Shown here piece by piece: positions 3,476-55,897 of a stretch of 55,897 nt of DNA. Below the pieces are notes generated by a model. It searched no databases. It was not told the origin of the DNA and saw only the letters and a list, made by a program, of their open reading frames with translations. Source of the stretch: an uncultured Eubacteriales bacterium (GTDB lineage Bacteria; Bacillota; Clostridia; Lachnospirales; Lachnospiraceae). The stretch is from positions 1 through 55,897 of the forward strand of contig OMVU01000006.1 in NCBI GenBank assembly GCA_900314565.1, written 5' to 3'. How positions within the stretch are numbered: the stretch's first letter is position 1; each line of letters begins with the position of its first letter. A program made the translations under genes and the position numbers.

Positions 3476-3550
3476 GATCGCAGCCGCGCAATGAGGAAGG
3501 TGCTCCGCACGCACCCTTCGCGGCACAGAAGGAACGCCGCGGCGTTCCTG
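3476..3550 (+). repeat. Dispersed structured repeat family A, copy 1
   Basis: About 75 nt beginning GATCGCAGCCGCGC. It can fold as an outer GCCGCG/CGCGGC stem around a GGTGC..GCAC hairpin, then a second hairpin GGAACGCC/GGCGTTCC. It fills the gap between the prepilin peptidase and the TadZ-like gene. Related copies are at 34261-34335, 53603-53645 (degenerate) and 55803-55877 (inverted). The second-hairpin stem differs between copies by paired changes (GGAACGC here, AAGAACGC in copies 2 and 4), which points to conserved structure. Confidence 0.8.
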
Positions 3551-3567
3551 ATATGGAGGAGACGGTT

Positions 3568-23842: not shown

Positions 23843-25411
23843 ATGCGTTTTGAGAGTACTGCAGAGAAAAATAACCAAACAGCCCGACAAGACGGGGAGA
23901 CAGAAATACTGAAAGAGACCGGGATGCCGGAGGAACCTGAGAAGGCGGAAATGCCGGAGGAGACAGAGATAAGGAAGAAGGCGGAAATGCCGAAGGAGAC
24001 GGAGATAAGGAAGAAGGCGGAGATGCCGGAGGAGACGAAGAGAACGGAGAACGCGGAACTTCGGAAGAAGTCGACCGTCCGGGATATGACAGAGGGGTCG
24101 ATTGCCGGGCATCTGACTGCATTCGCGCTCCCTCTTCTCTTCGGAAATGTCTTCCAGATGCTGTACAATACGGTGGATTCGATCGTCGTCGGTAATTTCG
24201 TCGGAAAAGAGGCGCTGGCTGCGATCAGCTCGACGACCATGATCGTCAACATCATGATCTTTTTCTTTAACGGATTCTCTATCGGCGGCGGTGTTGTGAT
24301 CAGCCAGTATTTCGGAGCCCGGAAACTGAAGGAACTTCACCGGACCGTGGAGACTGTGATCGCGGTCACGATCCTTTTCGGATTCTTCTTTACGCTAGCA
24401 GGGTTCGTGCTCGTCCCGGCCATGCTGAAACTCATGCAGACGCCGGAGGATGTGTTCCCACAGGCCAAAGTATATCTGGAGATCTATTTCGGAGGGGCGC
24501 TGGGTCTCCTTCTCTATAATATGGGGAGCGGTATCCTGAGAGCAGTGGGGGATACAAAGAGACCGCTGTACTTCCTGATCTTTACGAGCCTTCTGAACAC
24601 CGTACTTGACCTCTTCTTCGTCATTGTGATGAAAACGGGAATTGCCGGGGCGGCCTATGCGACGATCATTTCGCAGTTCCTTTCGGCCTTCCTTGTCCTC
24701 CTGCTTCTTTTGAGAACGGAGGATATCTACAAGCTGACCCTCACGGATCTTAAGATCGATCTGCCGATCCTTAAGATGATTTTCGCGATTGGTCTGCCGA
24801 CAGGGATTCAGTCCGTGATCACATCCGTATCCAACGTGTTCGTGCAGTCCTATATCAACGGATTCGGCTCCGGGTGCATGGCCGGATGGGGGGCTTATAA
24901 CAAGCTGGATTCTTTCATTTTCCTGCCGATCAATTCGCTCAGCCAGGCAGCTACGACCTTTGTCAGCCAGAATATCGGGGCGGAAAAACTCGAGCGGGCC
25001 AATAAGGGAGCGGCAAGGTCGATCCAGATGGCGGTCGGAGTGACGGCGGTCATCGCGACGATCCTGATCGTACTCGCGCCGCAGGCGACAGCGCTTTTCA
25101 CGAACGATGAGGAGGTCATCTATTACGGCGTGCTCTTTCTGCGCATGAACACGTACTTCCTGATGTTCAACGCGGTCAACCACGTTCTGGCCGGAGCGCT
25201 CAGGGGAAGAGGAGAATCCAGGGTACCGATGTTCTGCATGCTTCTGTGTTTTGTTCTGATCCGGCAGATTTATCTGTTCATCGGCAGCAGGATCGCCTAT
25301 ACACCCCATGTCGTCGGTTTCGGTTATCCGGTGGGCTGGATGACGTGCTGCGTCCTTGAACTTACCTATTTTATCAGATTCAGGAACAGGCACGGTGCAG
25401 GTCAGATCTGA
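23843..25411 (+). CDS. MATE-family multidrug/organic cation exporter with repetitive N-terminus
   Basis: A 522-residue cation-coupled antiporter with about 12 membrane helices; GSIAGHLTAFALPLLFGNVF and FNAVNHVLAGALRGRGESR are typical of the family. The first 85 or so residues are an unusual highly charged cytosolic extension made partly of a 12-residue repeat (KAEMPEETEIRK and variants), encoded by 36-bp tandem repeats. The core after it is of normal length. ATG 23843 is chosen over TTG 23834 since GGAGG (23829-23833) then has a 9-nt spacing. Substrate unknown. Confidence 0.88.
   Translation: MRFESTAEKNNQTARQDGETEILKETGMPEEPEKAEMPEETEIRKKAEMPKETEIRKKAEMPEETKRTENAELRKKSTVRDMTEGSIAGHLTAFALPLLFGNVFQMLYNTVDSIVVGNFVGKEALAAISSTTMIVNIMIFFFNGFSIGGGVVISQYFGARKLKELHRTVETVIAVTILFGFFFTLAGFVLVPAMLKLMQTPEDVFPQAKVYLEIYFGGALGLLLYNMGSGILRAVGDTKRPLYFLIFTSLLNTVLDLFFVIVMKTGIAGAAYATIISQFLSAFLVLLLLLRTEDIYKLTLTDLKIDLPILKMIFAIGLPTGIQSVITSVSNVFVQSYINGFGSGCMAGWGAYNKLDSFIFLPINSLSQAATTFVSQNIGAEKLERANKGAARSIQMAVGVTAVIATILIVLAPQATALFTNDEEVIYYGVLFLRMNTYFLMFNAVNHVLAGALRGRGESRVPMFCMLLCFVLIRQIYLFIGSRIAYTPHVVGFGYPVGWMTCCVLELTYFIRFRNRHGAGQI
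23942..24049 (+). repeat. Three 36-bp in-frame tandem repeats in the MATE gene
   Basis: Units at 23942-23977, 23978-24013 and 24014-24049. The first two differ at only a few positions; the third diverges at its end. A partial degenerate unit precedes them (about 23908-23941). Each unit keeps frame and encodes KAEMP(E/K)ET followed by charged residues, giving Glu/Lys-rich helical repeats. Confidence 0.9.
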
Positions 25412-33888: not shown

Positions 33889-33903
33889 ATGTAAAGATAC
33901 AGA

Positions 33904-34063
33904 GATAGAGGTTGCGGGGGACAAGAGTAGGCACACCGACGCATCAGGAAGCGGAAGACGTGTGAGAAAAGGGGACTCCGCCGAAGGGTCCGGGACCTGA
34001 GACCGGATTCCTGGGCATGCGGCCAAGAACCGTATGACTGTCATCGAGAGGTGGGGCGCTATC
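33904..34063 (+). promoter_or_regulatory. Lysine riboswitch (L box) aptamer
   Basis: Conserved L-box blocks appear in order: GATAGAGGTTGCG at the 5' side, ACAAGAGTAG, AAAAGGGGACTCCGCCGAAGG, CTGGGCATGCGGCC, ATGACTGTCATCGAGAGG and GGGGCGCTATC. P1 closes by GATAG (33904-33908) with CTATC (34059-34063). In this class lysine binding stabilises the aptamer and favours the terminator that follows, so dapA is turned off when lysine is plentiful. The gene downstream, dapA, makes the first step specific to lysine and diaminopimelate, which fits. Confidence 0.95.
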
Positions 34064-34082
34064 CGGGATTATCTGCTTATTC

Positions 34083-34114
34083 AGCGTCGCTCCCGTACAG
34101 GGCGGCGTTTTTTT
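34083..34114 (+). terminator. Riboswitch-controlled terminator
   Basis: CGTCGC-T-CCC pairs with GGG-C-GGCG (one mismatch, one G-T), followed by TTTTTTT at 34108-34114. It lies 20 nt after the aptamer and is the expected expression platform. Confidence 0.88.
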
Positions 34115-34258
34115 ATCTCAGTGGGGAAGACCCCCGCTTCTACAAGCGGCGGGTAAAACAATATCCTGCCAGTCTCAGTGGCGGGTTTCAATCCCCCGCT
34201 GAGATAAAAGCCTCAGCTACACAATGCTCCACTGGGGCATTGTTACGCATGCTTAGGC
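34111..34258 (+). repeat. Nested inverted-repeat block, possible IS200/IS605-type end or structured RNA
   Basis: Left arm 34111-34126 (TTTTATCTCAGTGGGG) pairs with 34194-34209 (15 of 16 Watson-Crick plus one G-T). Inside are the hairpin CCGCTT-ctac-AAGCGG (134-149 of this hundred, flanked by CCC/GGG) and a second partner for the same right arm at 34173-34185. Then comes a 9-bp hairpin (34222-34230 with 34234-34242) enclosed by GCCTCAGC/GCTTAGGC (34210-34217, 34251-34258). No transposase or TnpB frame is present. The layout resembles the hairpin-rich ends of IS200/IS605-like elements, from memory of such ends and not from a search. A stand-alone structured RNA is the alternative. It lies between the riboswitch terminator and dapA. 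Confidence 0.55.
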
Positions 34259-34260
34259 AC

Positions 34261-34335
34261 GGCGGATCGCAGCCGCGCAAAGAGGAAGGTGCTTCGCACC
34301 ATGCGCGGCGCGGCAAGAACGCTGAGGCGTTCTTG
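34261..34335 (+). repeat. Dispersed structured repeat family A, copy 2
   Basis: Contains GGATCGCAGCCGCGC, the GGTGC-ttc-GCACC hairpin enclosed by GCCGCGC/GCGCGGC, then CAAGAACGC/GCGTTCTTG. It ends 40 nt before the dapA start and abuts the inverted-repeat block, so the dapA leader beyond the riboswitch consists almost wholly of repeats. Confidence 0.85.
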
Positions 34336-34375
34336 AATGCAGACTATAAAAAACAGTTTTAGAGGAGAAAACAAA

Positions 34376-38382: not shown

Positions 38383-38412
38383 TTGACGGATACTTACGGA
38401 CCGTGTTAGTAT
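38383..38412 (+). promoter_or_regulatory. Promoter of the rplJL operon
   Basis: TTGACG (38383-38388), an 18-nt spacer and TAGTAT (38407-38412). It starts transcription just before the L10 leader. Confidence 0.75.
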
Positions 38413-38422
38413 AACAAAGCAT

Positions 38423-38542
38423 CAAGCCGAAGACAGCAGGTGTCCCGCGAGGGACGTAAGCGCAGCGCCTGCCGAGGAATTGATTGATTTCAAACGAGAT
38501 CTTTATGTCCCCGTGTCTTTGGATGCGGGGATTTTTTCTTTT
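38423..38542 (+). promoter_or_regulatory. Ribosomal protein L10 leader with attenuator
   Basis: GCCGAAGACAGCAGG and CCTGCCGAGGAAT, with the CCCGCGAGGG hairpin between them, match the Firmicutes L10 leader. A hairpin with CCCCG (38509-38513) and CGGGG (38526-38530), then ATTTTTTCTTTT, follows as a terminator. Free L10(L12)4 binding such leaders represses rplJL. Confidence 0.9.
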
Positions 38543-38584
38543 GCATGATGCACGAAATATTCGAAGAAGGAGGAACTTAAGGAC

Positions 38585-52795: not shown

Positions 52796-52938
52796 ATTCA
52801 ATCTTCAATGCACAATACTTGTGTCTCTGGATGTGAAGTACGCGCGCAAAAGGATACTCTCCTTCATCGCGAAATACTCGTGATTGTAATCATGAGATAC
52901 GCACGCAATGTGACAGAGAATCTGAGAGGGAATACATT

Positions 52939-53655: not shown

Positions 53656-53718
53656 AAGGTCTTCGTTTTTCTTGTAATTTCGGTCGTACGGATGCAAAAT
53701 AAGAACGAAGGCCTTTTT
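53656..53718 (+). terminator. Terminator after the SGNH hydrolase gene
   Basis: AAGGTCTTCGTT (from 53656) pairs with AACGAAGGCCTT (53704-53715) with one G-T, then TTTGG. A weak promoter for the following pair may lie at 53724-53753 (TTGCCT, 18 nt, TATAGA). Confidence 0.75.
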
Positions 53719-53772
53719 GGATTTTGCCTGCATACGGTTATGCGTCTTATAGAAACGGCAGGAGGAGAGGAC

Positions 53773-54459
53773 ATGTACGAAATCTACTGTGTGGAAGATG
53801 AAGGAAACATAAGGGAACTGATCGTCTATACGCTCGGTGTCACCGGCTTTGAGGCCCGGGGACTCCATGACGGAAAAGCGCTTGACGAAGCCCTCTCCGA
53901 CCCGGAGAAGAGTCTTCCGGATCTGATCCTTCTTGACATCATGCTTCCGGGCGAAGACGGGATTTCCATTCTCCGCAGGCTGAAGGAGGATGCACGTTAT
54001 CGTTCAATCCCGATCATCATGCTGACAGCACGGGGAGCTGAGTACGATAAAGTCCAGGCTCTGGATCTCGGAGCCGACGATTATGTTACGAAGCCGTTCG
54101 GGATGATGGAGCTTGTCTCGAGAATAAAAGCTGTTCTCCGGCGTGCTTCTTCCTATTCCAAGGATGATACAGTCCGGTTCGGCAGGCTGGAAATCAGCGA
54201 GAAGAAGCGATCCGTACTGGCGGATGGTGAGCAGATCGTTCTGACGAACAAGGAATTCGAGCTGCTGAGCCTCCTTGTGCGGAGTCCTGAAATCGTCATG
54301 ACCCGGGATCAGCTTCTGGACGCGATCTGGGGGCACGATTTTTCCGGGGAGTCCAGGACTCTTGATGTGCACATTGCGACGCTTCGCCAGAAACTGGGCA
54401 GCGCAGGTGAGGTGATTGAAACGATCCGGGGAGTCGGGTATCGTTTGCGGGAGAAGTGA
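53773..54459 (+). CDS. OmpR/PhoB-family response regulator
   Basis: A 228-residue two-component regulator. The receiver domain (1-118) has the phospho-acceptor Asp55 in LILLDIMLPGEDG and the conserved Lys in TKPFGMMEL. The winged-helix DNA-binding domain (about 128-227) ends RTLDVHIATLRQKLG with GVGYRL. ATG 53773 follows GGAGGAGAGG; a longer frame from 53692 overlaps the terminator and is rejected. The kinase gene starts 1 nt after its stop, so they are a pair. PhoB/PhoP-like; the signal is unknown. Confidence 0.93.
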   Translation: MYEIYCVEDEGNIRELIVYTLGVTGFEARGLHDGKALDEALSDPEKSLPDLILLDIMLPGEDGISILRRLKEDARYRSIPIIMLTARGAEYDKVQALDLGADDYVTKPFGMMELVSRIKAVLRRASSYSKDDTVRFGRLEISEKKRSVLADGEQIVLTNKEFELLSLLVRSPEIVMTRDQLLDAIWGHDFSGESRTLDVHIATLRQKLGSAGEVIETIRGVGYRLREK

Positions 54460-54460
54460 A

Positions 54461-55888
54461 ATGCAGAGAAGAATTCAGCGCAGCATGGTCGTTCTGGTCA
54501 CAGTGGCCATGCTGGTTTCTTATTTCGGGGCAGTTCTGGTCATGTACCAGCAGATTGTCGAGATCATGGAGCAGGAGGTCGGACAGGATGCGGTCTTTAT
54601 CAGTGCAGGTGCGGACCATTACGGCGCGGGGGATCTGGAGAATATAGACAAAGCGCTGGAGGGTACAAGGGTCACGCTGATCGCCCCTTCGGGAGAGATC
54701 CTCTATGATACATACGGGGATAATATCCCTCTGGAGAATCATGCCGACCGCCCGGAGATCCGTGAGGCTTTTGAGACAGGAGAGGGAAGTGATATCCGGT
54801 ACTCCAACAGTCTCGGGACCTTAATGTTTTATGCAGCCAGGAGAACGGAAGAGGGAAATGTTCTGAGAGTTTCCAAAGCCTCCAGATCCGCGTTCTGGAT
54901 GGCGCTTCGAATCCTGCCTGTCATGCTTGGTGTCGCAGCCTTCCTCTTTGTATTCGAGTGGTTCTTATCAAAGCTGCTTTCCAGGAGACTTGTGGAACCG
55001 ATCAATGAGATCGATCTGGATGATCCGCTGAAAGAAGAAATCTACGAAGAGCTTGCACCGCTGGTAAAAAGAATTGATCATCAGAATCAGCAGAAGGACG
55101 TGGCGGAGACAATGCGCAAGGAGTTTTCGGCGAATGTCTCCCATGAGCTGAAGACGCCGCTCACGACCATTTCCGGCTATGCGGAGCTTCTGAAAGAGGG
55201 GCTGGTCCCGCAGGAAAATGTCCGGGAGGTGGCAGCCAACATTTACCAGGATGTGCAGCGCATGGTGCGTCTGATCAACGATATTATCCGCCTGTCCAGA
55301 CTCGATGAGGGTGAGATATCCGAGTCCAAGGAGGAAGTCGAGCTTCTGGATCTCACGCGGACTGTCTGCGGGCTTCTTTCCAAAGAGGCGGAGAATAATC
55401 AGGTGACGCTTACGTGTGAAGGCTCTCCGGCAGCTGTGCCCGGCATCCGGCATATTCTGGAGGAGATGATCTTCAATATTATTGAAAATGCGATCAAATA
55501 TAACAGGCCCGGCGGCTATGTACAGGTGCAGACCGGACGCTTTCCGGAAGGGACTAAAGTGATCGTCAGGGATAATGGGATCGGAATACCGGAGGAGGAG
55601 CAGGAGAGGATCTTTGAGCGCTTCTACAGAATCGACAAAAGCCGATCAAAGGCGACCGGCGGGACCGGTCTCGGGCTTTCGATCGTGAAGCACGGGGCTC
55701 TGCTGCATGATGCGGAGGTGCATGTTGAGAGTGAGGTCGGAAAAGGGACGGTGATGGAAGTTCTTTTCAAGGGGGAGGACGCTTCCTCCTCTGCTGCATC
55801 ATCAAGAACGCCTCGGCGTTCTTGCCGCGCCGCGCGAGGTGCGAAGCACCTTCCTAATTGCGCGGCTGCGATCCGCCGGAGGCTTTAA
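54461..55888 (+). CDS. Membrane sensor histidine kinase with repeat-derived C-terminus
   Basis: A 475-residue PhoR-like kinase. Helix 1 (about 8-30), an external sensor region (about 31-145), helix 2 (about 150-170), then HisKA with His228 in NVSHELKTPLTT and HATPase with NAIKYN, DNGIGIPEEEQERIFERFYR and GGTGLGLSIVKHG. Normal kinases of this type end soon after the TVMEVLF strand. Here about 28 more residues (448-475, Arg/Ala/Cys-rich) are read from an inverted family A repeat. The original stop seems to have been displaced. ATG 54461 is set by GGGAGAAG. Kinase activity should be unaffected. Confidence 0.9.
   Translation: MQRRIQRSMVVLVTVAMLVSYFGAVLVMYQQIVEIMEQEVGQDAVFISAGADHYGAGDLENIDKALEGTRVTLIAPSGEILYDTYGDNIPLENHADRPEIREAFETGEGSDIRYSNSLGTLMFYAARRTEEGNVLRVSKASRSAFWMALRILPVMLGVAAFLFVFEWFLSKLLSRRLVEPINEIDLDDPLKEEIYEELAPLVKRIDHQNQQKDVAETMRKEFSANVSHELKTPLTTISGYAELLKEGLVPQENVREVAANIYQDVQRMVRLINDIIRLSRLDEGEISESKEEVELLDLTRTVCGLLSKEAENNQVTLTCEGSPAAVPGIRHILEEMIFNIIENAIKYNRPGGYVQVQTGRFPEGTKVIVRDNGIGIPEEEQERIFERFYRIDKSRSKATGGTGLGLSIVKHGALLHDAEVHVESEVGKGTVMEVLFKGEDASSSAASSRTPRRSCRAARGAKHLPNCAAAIRRRL
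55803..55877 (-). repeat. Dispersed structured repeat family A, copy 4 (inside a gene)
   Basis: In reverse orientation, closest to copy 2: GGATCGCAGCCGCGC, GGTGC-ttc-GCACC, GCGCGGC, then CAAGAACGCC/GGCGTTCTTG. It overlaps the last codons of the histidine kinase gene. Confidence 0.88.
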
Positions 55889-55897
55889 TCTCTGACG

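Follow-up and report, generated by a model that had tools for sequence, protein, structure and literature searches.

A sensor histidine kinase gene near the end of the analysed stretch of DNA (the window, comprising the first 55,897 bases of a contig in a genome assembly of 4.2 Mb and 191 contigs) runs into a palindromic repeat before its frame closes. This raises the question whether the last codons of the gene are native, were supplied by an insertion, or reflect an assembly error, and whether the resulting protein end has any meaning of its own.

The Kinase Gene and Its Repeat-Derived 3′ End

A Pfam scan of the predicted protein revealed HisKA (PF00512, residues 218-284) and HATPase_c (PF02518, residues 332-437) domains, which, together with an adjoining regulator gene, are the hallmarks of a sensor histidine kinase. 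The label “membrane” refers to hydrophobic stretches judged by eye. As start of the response regulator gene, the ATG at 53773 was picked within the open frame 53692-54459. The native part of the kinase ends with ...GEDASSSAAS at residue 447, codon 448 begins at 55802, the stop codon occupies 55886-55888, and codons 448-475 correspond exactly to the repeat-derived part. An earlier note on this DNA had claimed that an inverted copy of a repeat family, termed A, makes up these codons, and an inverted match between 34260-34336 and 55802-55878 (77 nt, 94%) bears this out. The frame is open to 475 aa as described there, whereas the repeat extent of 55803..55877 (75 bases) has to be corrected, since the element starts at 55801 and passes the window end. 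According to the composition of the translation, the 28 added residues comprise 8 Arg, 1 Lys, and no acidic residue. All head frames of the kinase copy are open, namely, for 18, 28, and 30 codons. The features of the locus and the further element copies in the window are compiled in Table 1.

Table 1. Kinase locus and element-derived sequences in the window.
Feature	Position	Strand	Basis
Response regulator gene	53773..54459	+	Directly upstream of kinase; PF00072 and PF00486
Membrane sensor histidine kinase	54461..55888	+	ORF; 475 aa predicted; native part, residues 1-447
Element head and tail start at the kinase, head-first	55801..55897	+	Copy alignment, L001 sequence, empty site
Repeat-supplied codons 448-475 (SRTPRRSCRAARGAKHLPNCAAAIRRRL) and stop	55802..55888	+	Translation; without counterpart in the G034 empty-site ortholog
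First head hairpin	55803..55824	+	Fold; palindrome count
Second head hairpin, GC-rich, compound	55826..55870	+	Fold
Tail start: inner copy of target and element end (TTTAATCTCTGACG), guide-like	55884..55897	+	Position, copy comparison; guide role putative
Second element copy, type-3 tail (L083)	34110..34338	-	Sequence match, copy alignment
Diverged partial head copy, ~80%	3476..3552	-	Sequence match
Piece of type-2 tail, 90%	52862..52913	-	Sequence match

Empty Sites in Related Genomes

A search with the kinase over 61 genomes revealed close orthologs in two only, G034 and G005; the next matches reach at most 46% over a comparable length or are short. The G034 kinase shows 94% identity over residues 214-454 and 90% over residues 1-214, and stops right after residue 447 (...KGEDASSSAAS*) with no repeat. 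The G005 kinase (82%) ends with ...KGEDPSAS*, by eye also without the repeat. In the ortholog alignment that the earlier note had proposed as a check, G034 thus ends at residue 447 and G005 in a similar place, and a repeat-less ortholog sharing the tail was not encountered, as neither of the two has it. The joined flanks of the kinase insertion align to G034 over 179 bases with 95% identity and one A fewer in an A run of the own genome. Due to the divergence of the downstream DNA of G005, no alignment across the kinase junction was obtained for this genome. As shown by the G034 empty site, the kinase 3′ end is the site of an element insertion, and the native stop codon was displaced. The insertion near the stop and the lengthening of the predicted protein proposed earlier are thereby upheld, and the position can be given more sharply: the insertion point falls within the final sense codon, a single base ahead of TAA. 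The kinase frame of G034, the single relative with an empty kinase site, is itself split (L011, G034:C407, near 1501) by a small deletion, natural or due to assembly, which leaves the 3′ end unaffected.

For 10 more insertion sites, the joined flanks served as queries against G034 and G005. The L005 site is empty and clean in G034 (180/180 bases, 96%), and at L007, L061, and L062 the alignment spans the junction in DNA of greater divergence. Joining empty sites were thus obtained for 5 of the 11 sites tried (kinase and L005 clean, the other three diverged); the L095 site is filled in G034 too, and five other sites gave no clean empty site. No target duplication was observed at the five joining empty sites. 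To the right of their junctions, the first four bases read TTAA (kinase), TTGA, TTCA in G034 or TTAA in G005, ATGA, and TTAG. In case of L005, L007, L061, and L062, the bases after the junction are frequently not the same in empty and filled sites, the filled site always being the one closer to TTAA or ATAA. Because the empty-site bases vary, either the target rule looks looser, or the site is altered or the element end rewritten on insertion; divergence may also explain the variation, which speaks against a strict target rule.

Structure of the Element and the Assembly Gap

The element has a length of about 186 nt and consists of a hairpin head (~97 nt, common to the best copies) and a palindromic tail ending before TTAA, with L005, about 186 nt long, as the reference full-length copy. 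At the kinase, the element runs into a 25-N gap right after the window, so that the window end represents an assembly gap inside the repeat. The element resumes behind this gap (55898-55922); its last base is contig base 56015, with TTAA immediately following, and beyond its remainder comes the kinase's native downstream DNA, as in G034. The kinase/repeat junction and the new stop are both located before the gap, and the TAA ending the lengthened frame sits in the inner copy at 55884..55897. Since the two halves were joined over the N gap, the full element at this place was never read through.

The palindrome of the first hairpin (up to 6 loop bases) occurs at 45 places in the own genome, including the kinase copy, and the reversed pattern at none. 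On the kinase strand the repeat folds better than 200 of 200 shuffles (z -4.3), and strong single-strand folds were found for two element copies. The whole element lacks a terminal inverted repeat and carries hairpins near both ends; the tail module by itself has inverted ends. Solo tail ends occur in truncated and nested forms (20 regions), and in front of the tail ends L268 and L267 lie short direct repeats with GAACAGGATACAAATTTGT-like and GAATTCTGCGTCACT-like units. By eye, the type-3 tail (GATTGAAAC) appears CRISPR-like. Further direct repeats with a spacing of 18 and 36 nt (AGAAGGCGGAAATGCCGGAGGAGAC...) are situated at 23904-24073 of the window.

An Rfam search of the whole window at gathering score assigned no family to the element; the only matches were a lysine riboswitch at 33898-34069, close to the element copy at 34110-34338, and a ribosomal protein L10 leader at 38409-38546. 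A known RNA family was also considered for the repeat itself and rejected, as a permissive Rfam search around it gave one match with an E-value of 0.71, taken as chance. A terminator scan of L001 1300-2000 predicted none within the element and sites outside of it, one of them in a native downstream palindrome.

Thirteen copies in the own genome, the kinase copy among them, were chosen for breaking or jumping, and in all of them this happens at a distance of 96-98 nt from the start of the head, irrespective of the tail type. Such copies (L002-L004, L063, L065, L068, L072-L075, L077, and L096) are probably assembly joins, and copies such as L005 and L008 are continuous without a break. The constant position looks like an assembler limit or effect. 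Jumps inside copies as a biological phenomenon were dropped, given the constant distance in the 13 chosen copies.

Copy Number and Distribution

In the own genome, a 118-base query found at least 41 matches, the query included, with E-values from 1.9e-56; 40 of 269 first-look candidates were scored for this count. With a 237-base query, element matches were found in 14 of 37 genomes of the same genus (own included) and in none of the 24 genomes taken from other genera. Scanning named genomes with a sequence pattern gave at least 98 stretches, all listed titles being Lachnospiraceae or Eubacterium sp. UBA3782. Sheep or goat ileum or reindeer is given in some of these titles, and one isolate, AD3010, is among them. 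These kin place the window's genome putatively in the Lachnospiraceae. Considering the upstream flanks, 130 of 153 were scored as non-coding by a codon-usage model, so most copies seem to be intergenic; as this model missed the transporter fusion described below, it under-calls coding flanks.

Tail Types, Targets, and a Guide-Like Inner Copy

Read head-first, typed copies open with TCAAG preceded by A or T, and TTAA or ATAA comes immediately after their end; these targets come from a search pattern which itself contains the same bases. The first base is linked to the tail type: it is A in 28 of 29 type-1 copies, and T in 24 of 26 type-2 and 17 of 19 type-3 copies, figures to be read with 83 of 157 heads lacking a typed tail and with copies that are not independent. 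The same non-independence applies to the association of first base and tail type (Fisher p 5e-15, types 2 and 3 pooled). The pattern persists within one head type (25/26, 7/8, and 16/18), hence the base goes with the tail and not with the head.

The tails contain an inverted inner copy of their own end and target, which is exact in 52 of the 71 typed copies; no exact copy was found in the remaining 19, and the end and target of another type in none of the 71. Viewed from the other strand, the element is located 3′ of TTTAA (type 1) or TTTAT (types 2 and 3). Judged by base complementarity, the inner copy can pair with the target and the element end, and the base at the opposite end would mismatch the inner copy in all three types, which we regard as a lead. 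It is possible, if doubtful, that these copies represent a guide-directed single-strand family in which guide, target (TTTAA in type 1, TTTAT in types 2 and 3), and opposite terminal base change together; the target would then pair with the guide, and the element's own other end would mismatch it. Since the target contains TAA, such a family would act as a tag that seeks stop codons and appends one and the same Arg-rich peptide to TAA-ending genes. Three tail types with matched targets provide a natural test of guide-directed insertion.

Mobility of the Element

Very probably, the locus is explained best by an element of about 186 nt, without genes of its own, that inserted itself into the final codon of the kinase gene and lengthened the predicted protein by 28 residues. 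Having entered one base before TAA, it displaced the native stop, and the open frame through the head adds the 28 residues and ends on the TAA inside the element. The element would move as a single strand, served in trans by a tyrosine transposase resembling those of IS200/IS605, and the inner target-plus-end copy would be the pairing guide. The added tail would be a by-product of the insertion, translated but probably unstructured, and tolerated rather than selected. By analogy, the element would work like an IS200/IS605-type passenger.

Y1 transposase domains gave 9 hits in the own genome, several of them partial, and 66 hits in 22 of 41 genomes of the genus. A Y1 hit was present in 12 of 14 carriers of the element vs 9 of 23 non-carriers (G000-G036; kinship uncorrected), which leaves two carriers without a hit. 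A transposase with matching ends was not found among 41 loci (37 of the 66 Y1 hits and 4 TnpB), the only convincing match being L222, a nested IS, and six Y1 proteins or pieces from the own genome had no match in L001-L196. In G021:C9, a Y1 gene is cut by the contig end about 470 bases from an element copy, with other sequence in between.

The Y1 gene of L222 in G034, situated between a head and a tail, was considered as an autonomous parent and rejected, since it belongs to a separate IS within a type-2 element. This IS (G034:C341, 844-1837) is nested at the inner TTTATT copy and has its own ends (GTGTCGCAG... and ...CCTGACT); its guide-like AATAA and a target read as TTATT are similar in kind to those of the element, but not the same. 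For L198 and L230, short similarities exist between the LE hairpins of these IS loci and the tail hairpin. The idea of a TnpB guide RNA was likewise abandoned: the own genome has 4 TnpB-domain hits, and the element has no convincing match to their loci.

Fusions at Stop Codons

Due to the fact that the target includes TAA, a hit on a TAA stop codon in this orientation displaces the stop and fixes the frame of the head (SRTPRRSC...). In a gene ending with NNT-TAA or NNA-TAA, the insertion splits the last sense codon behind its second base, and reading then continues into the head as NN(A/T)-TCA-AGA-ACG. The kinase obeys this scheme, with TCT-TAA in G034 vs TCA-TCA-AGA in the own genome. A second fusion in the same frame was found in L185 (RGIG2452; G023 is identical), where it affects the S component of an ECF riboflavin transporter. 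There, the transporter enters a truncated head with the added tail SRTPRRSCRDVRGA, and its G021 ortholog ends with ...NHK* at the place of fusion (CAT-AAA-TAA). Since the L185 element has lost its tail module, only the left junction can be judged.

For a survey of coding flanks, frames of at least 70 codons entering the head were collected from 151 distinct copies with at least 300 nt of upstream DNA. Open frames enter the head in 53 cases, 17 in the frame of the kinase and 36 in other frames. In the Pfam scan, 2 of the 17 kinase-frame candidates have a domain, namely, the kinase and the transporter. A Pfam domain was found in none of the 4 frames scanned out of the 36 in other phases, so that two fusions are a lower bound. 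Gene fusions thus look rare, with at least 2 among 151 copies. Ten of the kinase-frame candidates without a domain were discarded as genes because a longer antisense open run makes them look spurious. In the frame of the kinase, other head types reach a stop after 14 codons. By eye, remnants of type-1 tail ends of about 20 nt (GAATTCTGCGTCAGAGATTAA) lie directly on TGA in L251 and L258 of the own genome, where the upstream sequence looks coding.

Alternative Explanations

An assembly artefact, by which the kinase contig was wrongly extended into the repeat while the true gene stops after residue 447, is suggested by the N gap inside the repeat at the window end and by the common break distance of the 13 copies, but appears highly improbable: the kinase's own downstream flank is present on the far side of the gap, as in G034, the start of the element is the one expected from the empty site, and the constant break length fits a fixed run from unique DNA into the repeat, which would place the junction inside the contig. 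Windows ending at such repeats nevertheless call for careful reading. If the insertion is taken as real, it may have been brought about by another enzyme than an IS200/IS605-like transposase, e.g., a recombinase of the tyrosine or serine type that exchanges a short region. This would agree with the differing bases to the right of the junction in some empty and filled sites, and with the fact that no Y1 transposase with matching ends was found among the loci searched. Missing inverted repeats at the ends, hairpins near both ends, the absence of a duplication, and an AT-rich fixed side, on the other hand, form the IS200/IS605 pattern, and the prevalence of Y1 hits in carriers (kinship uncorrected) points in the same direction; we therefore consider another enzyme unlikely, although not negligibly so.

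The added tail might also be a functional, kept extension, i.e., a basic tail binding membranes or nucleic acids, with the element domesticated at the kinase. Its strongly basic composition on a membrane kinase and the three open head frames are in favour of this, but neither close ortholog has the tail, the peptide is merely what the DNA hairpins encode, and just 2 Pfam-backed fusions were found among 151 copies, with other head types stopping after 14 codons, so that we regard such a function as very unlikely. Quite unlikely, too, is that the repeat mainly represents an RNA or DNA signal kept between genes, with the fusion being incidental, a reading compatible with mobility. It would account for the predominance of upstream flanks without coding signal and for the stable folds, against which stand the lack of an Rfam family over threshold and of a terminator inside the element in the scanned part of L001. 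With the insertion of a mobile, gene-less element as the preferred explanation, the kinase provides a case of a selfish repeat changing the predicted end of a protein, with the empty site present in a relative. A simple rule is suggested for protein ends changed by repeats, as the target includes the TAA stop and the frame is hence fixed. Among the annotated proteins of the genus, some may end in repeat-derived sequence, and proteomes can be searched for the tail peptide.

Comparison with Known Systems

Several features agree with palindrome-associated elements (PATEs) and non-autonomous IS200/IS605 elements: the element is short (~186 nt), occurs in many copies, encodes no transposase, lacks a terminal inverted repeat, has hairpins near both ends, and leaves joining empty sites without duplication. 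On the presumed target side, filled sites read TTAA or ATAA, which the search pattern includes, and the empty sites TTAA, TTGA, TTCA/TTAA, ATGA, and TTAG. Ends shared with a TnpA-coding IS200/IS605 element were not found at 37 of the 66 Y1 hits, where only the nested IS with other ends was seen. A MITE of a DDE transposon does not fit, since terminal inverted repeats in the element and target duplication at the empty sites are both absent. Frequent in-frame insertion as known from Rickettsia palindromic elements was not seen either, with 2 Pfam-backed fusions per 151 copies and 130 of 153 flanks non-coding.

REP sequences are shorter than the element and extragenic. As far as the available text of PMC2817692 describes them, REP sequences with RAYT transposases resemble the element as high-copy palindromes tied to a tyrosine transposase; in contrast, no RAYT-like gene was found beside element copies (six own Y1 queries, L001-L196). 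The PATEs of Haloquadratum are described in the accessible part of PMC3119063 with palindromes near the ends, no terminal inverted repeats, no target duplication, and no room for a transposase, and, like the element, they are nested in each other and occur in many copies. Unlike the element, for which no partner sharing its ends was found, they are archaeal and tied to IS605-type palindromes; peculiar to the element in this comparison are its copies on stop codons and the association of its 5′ base with the type of tail and the target. IS608 inserts 3′ of a fixed tetranucleotide which pairs with a guide in the transposon end, and a change of the guide changes the target; in distinction from the element, it encodes its own transposase, and its guide comprises four bases, compared to a complement of about 14 bases located about 90 bases from the end of the element (PMC5934647, available sections).

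With respect to protein ends, PMC10969869 describes the Rickettsia palindromic elements as palindromic repeats of about 150 bp which, like the element, insert into genes and contribute an in-frame peptide; nearly half of them are located in genes, whereas genic copies of the element look rare and both copies seen replace a stop codon. The stem loops of Borrelia IS605B, according to the accessible text of PMC2775950, place an IS605-type end at the 3′ ends of lipoprotein genes, 8 nt inside the coding part, but these are the flanks of an IS, whereas the element is a separate, high-copy unit with empty sites. Among open-licence papers on Lachnospiraceae and rumen repeats, MITE fusions, and stop-codon insertion, judged by titles and abstract beginnings, no description of the element was found. 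Protein ends supplied by repeats have precedents in other systems. What looks new is the family of the element, its rule for stop codons, and the way in which its two ends change in step.
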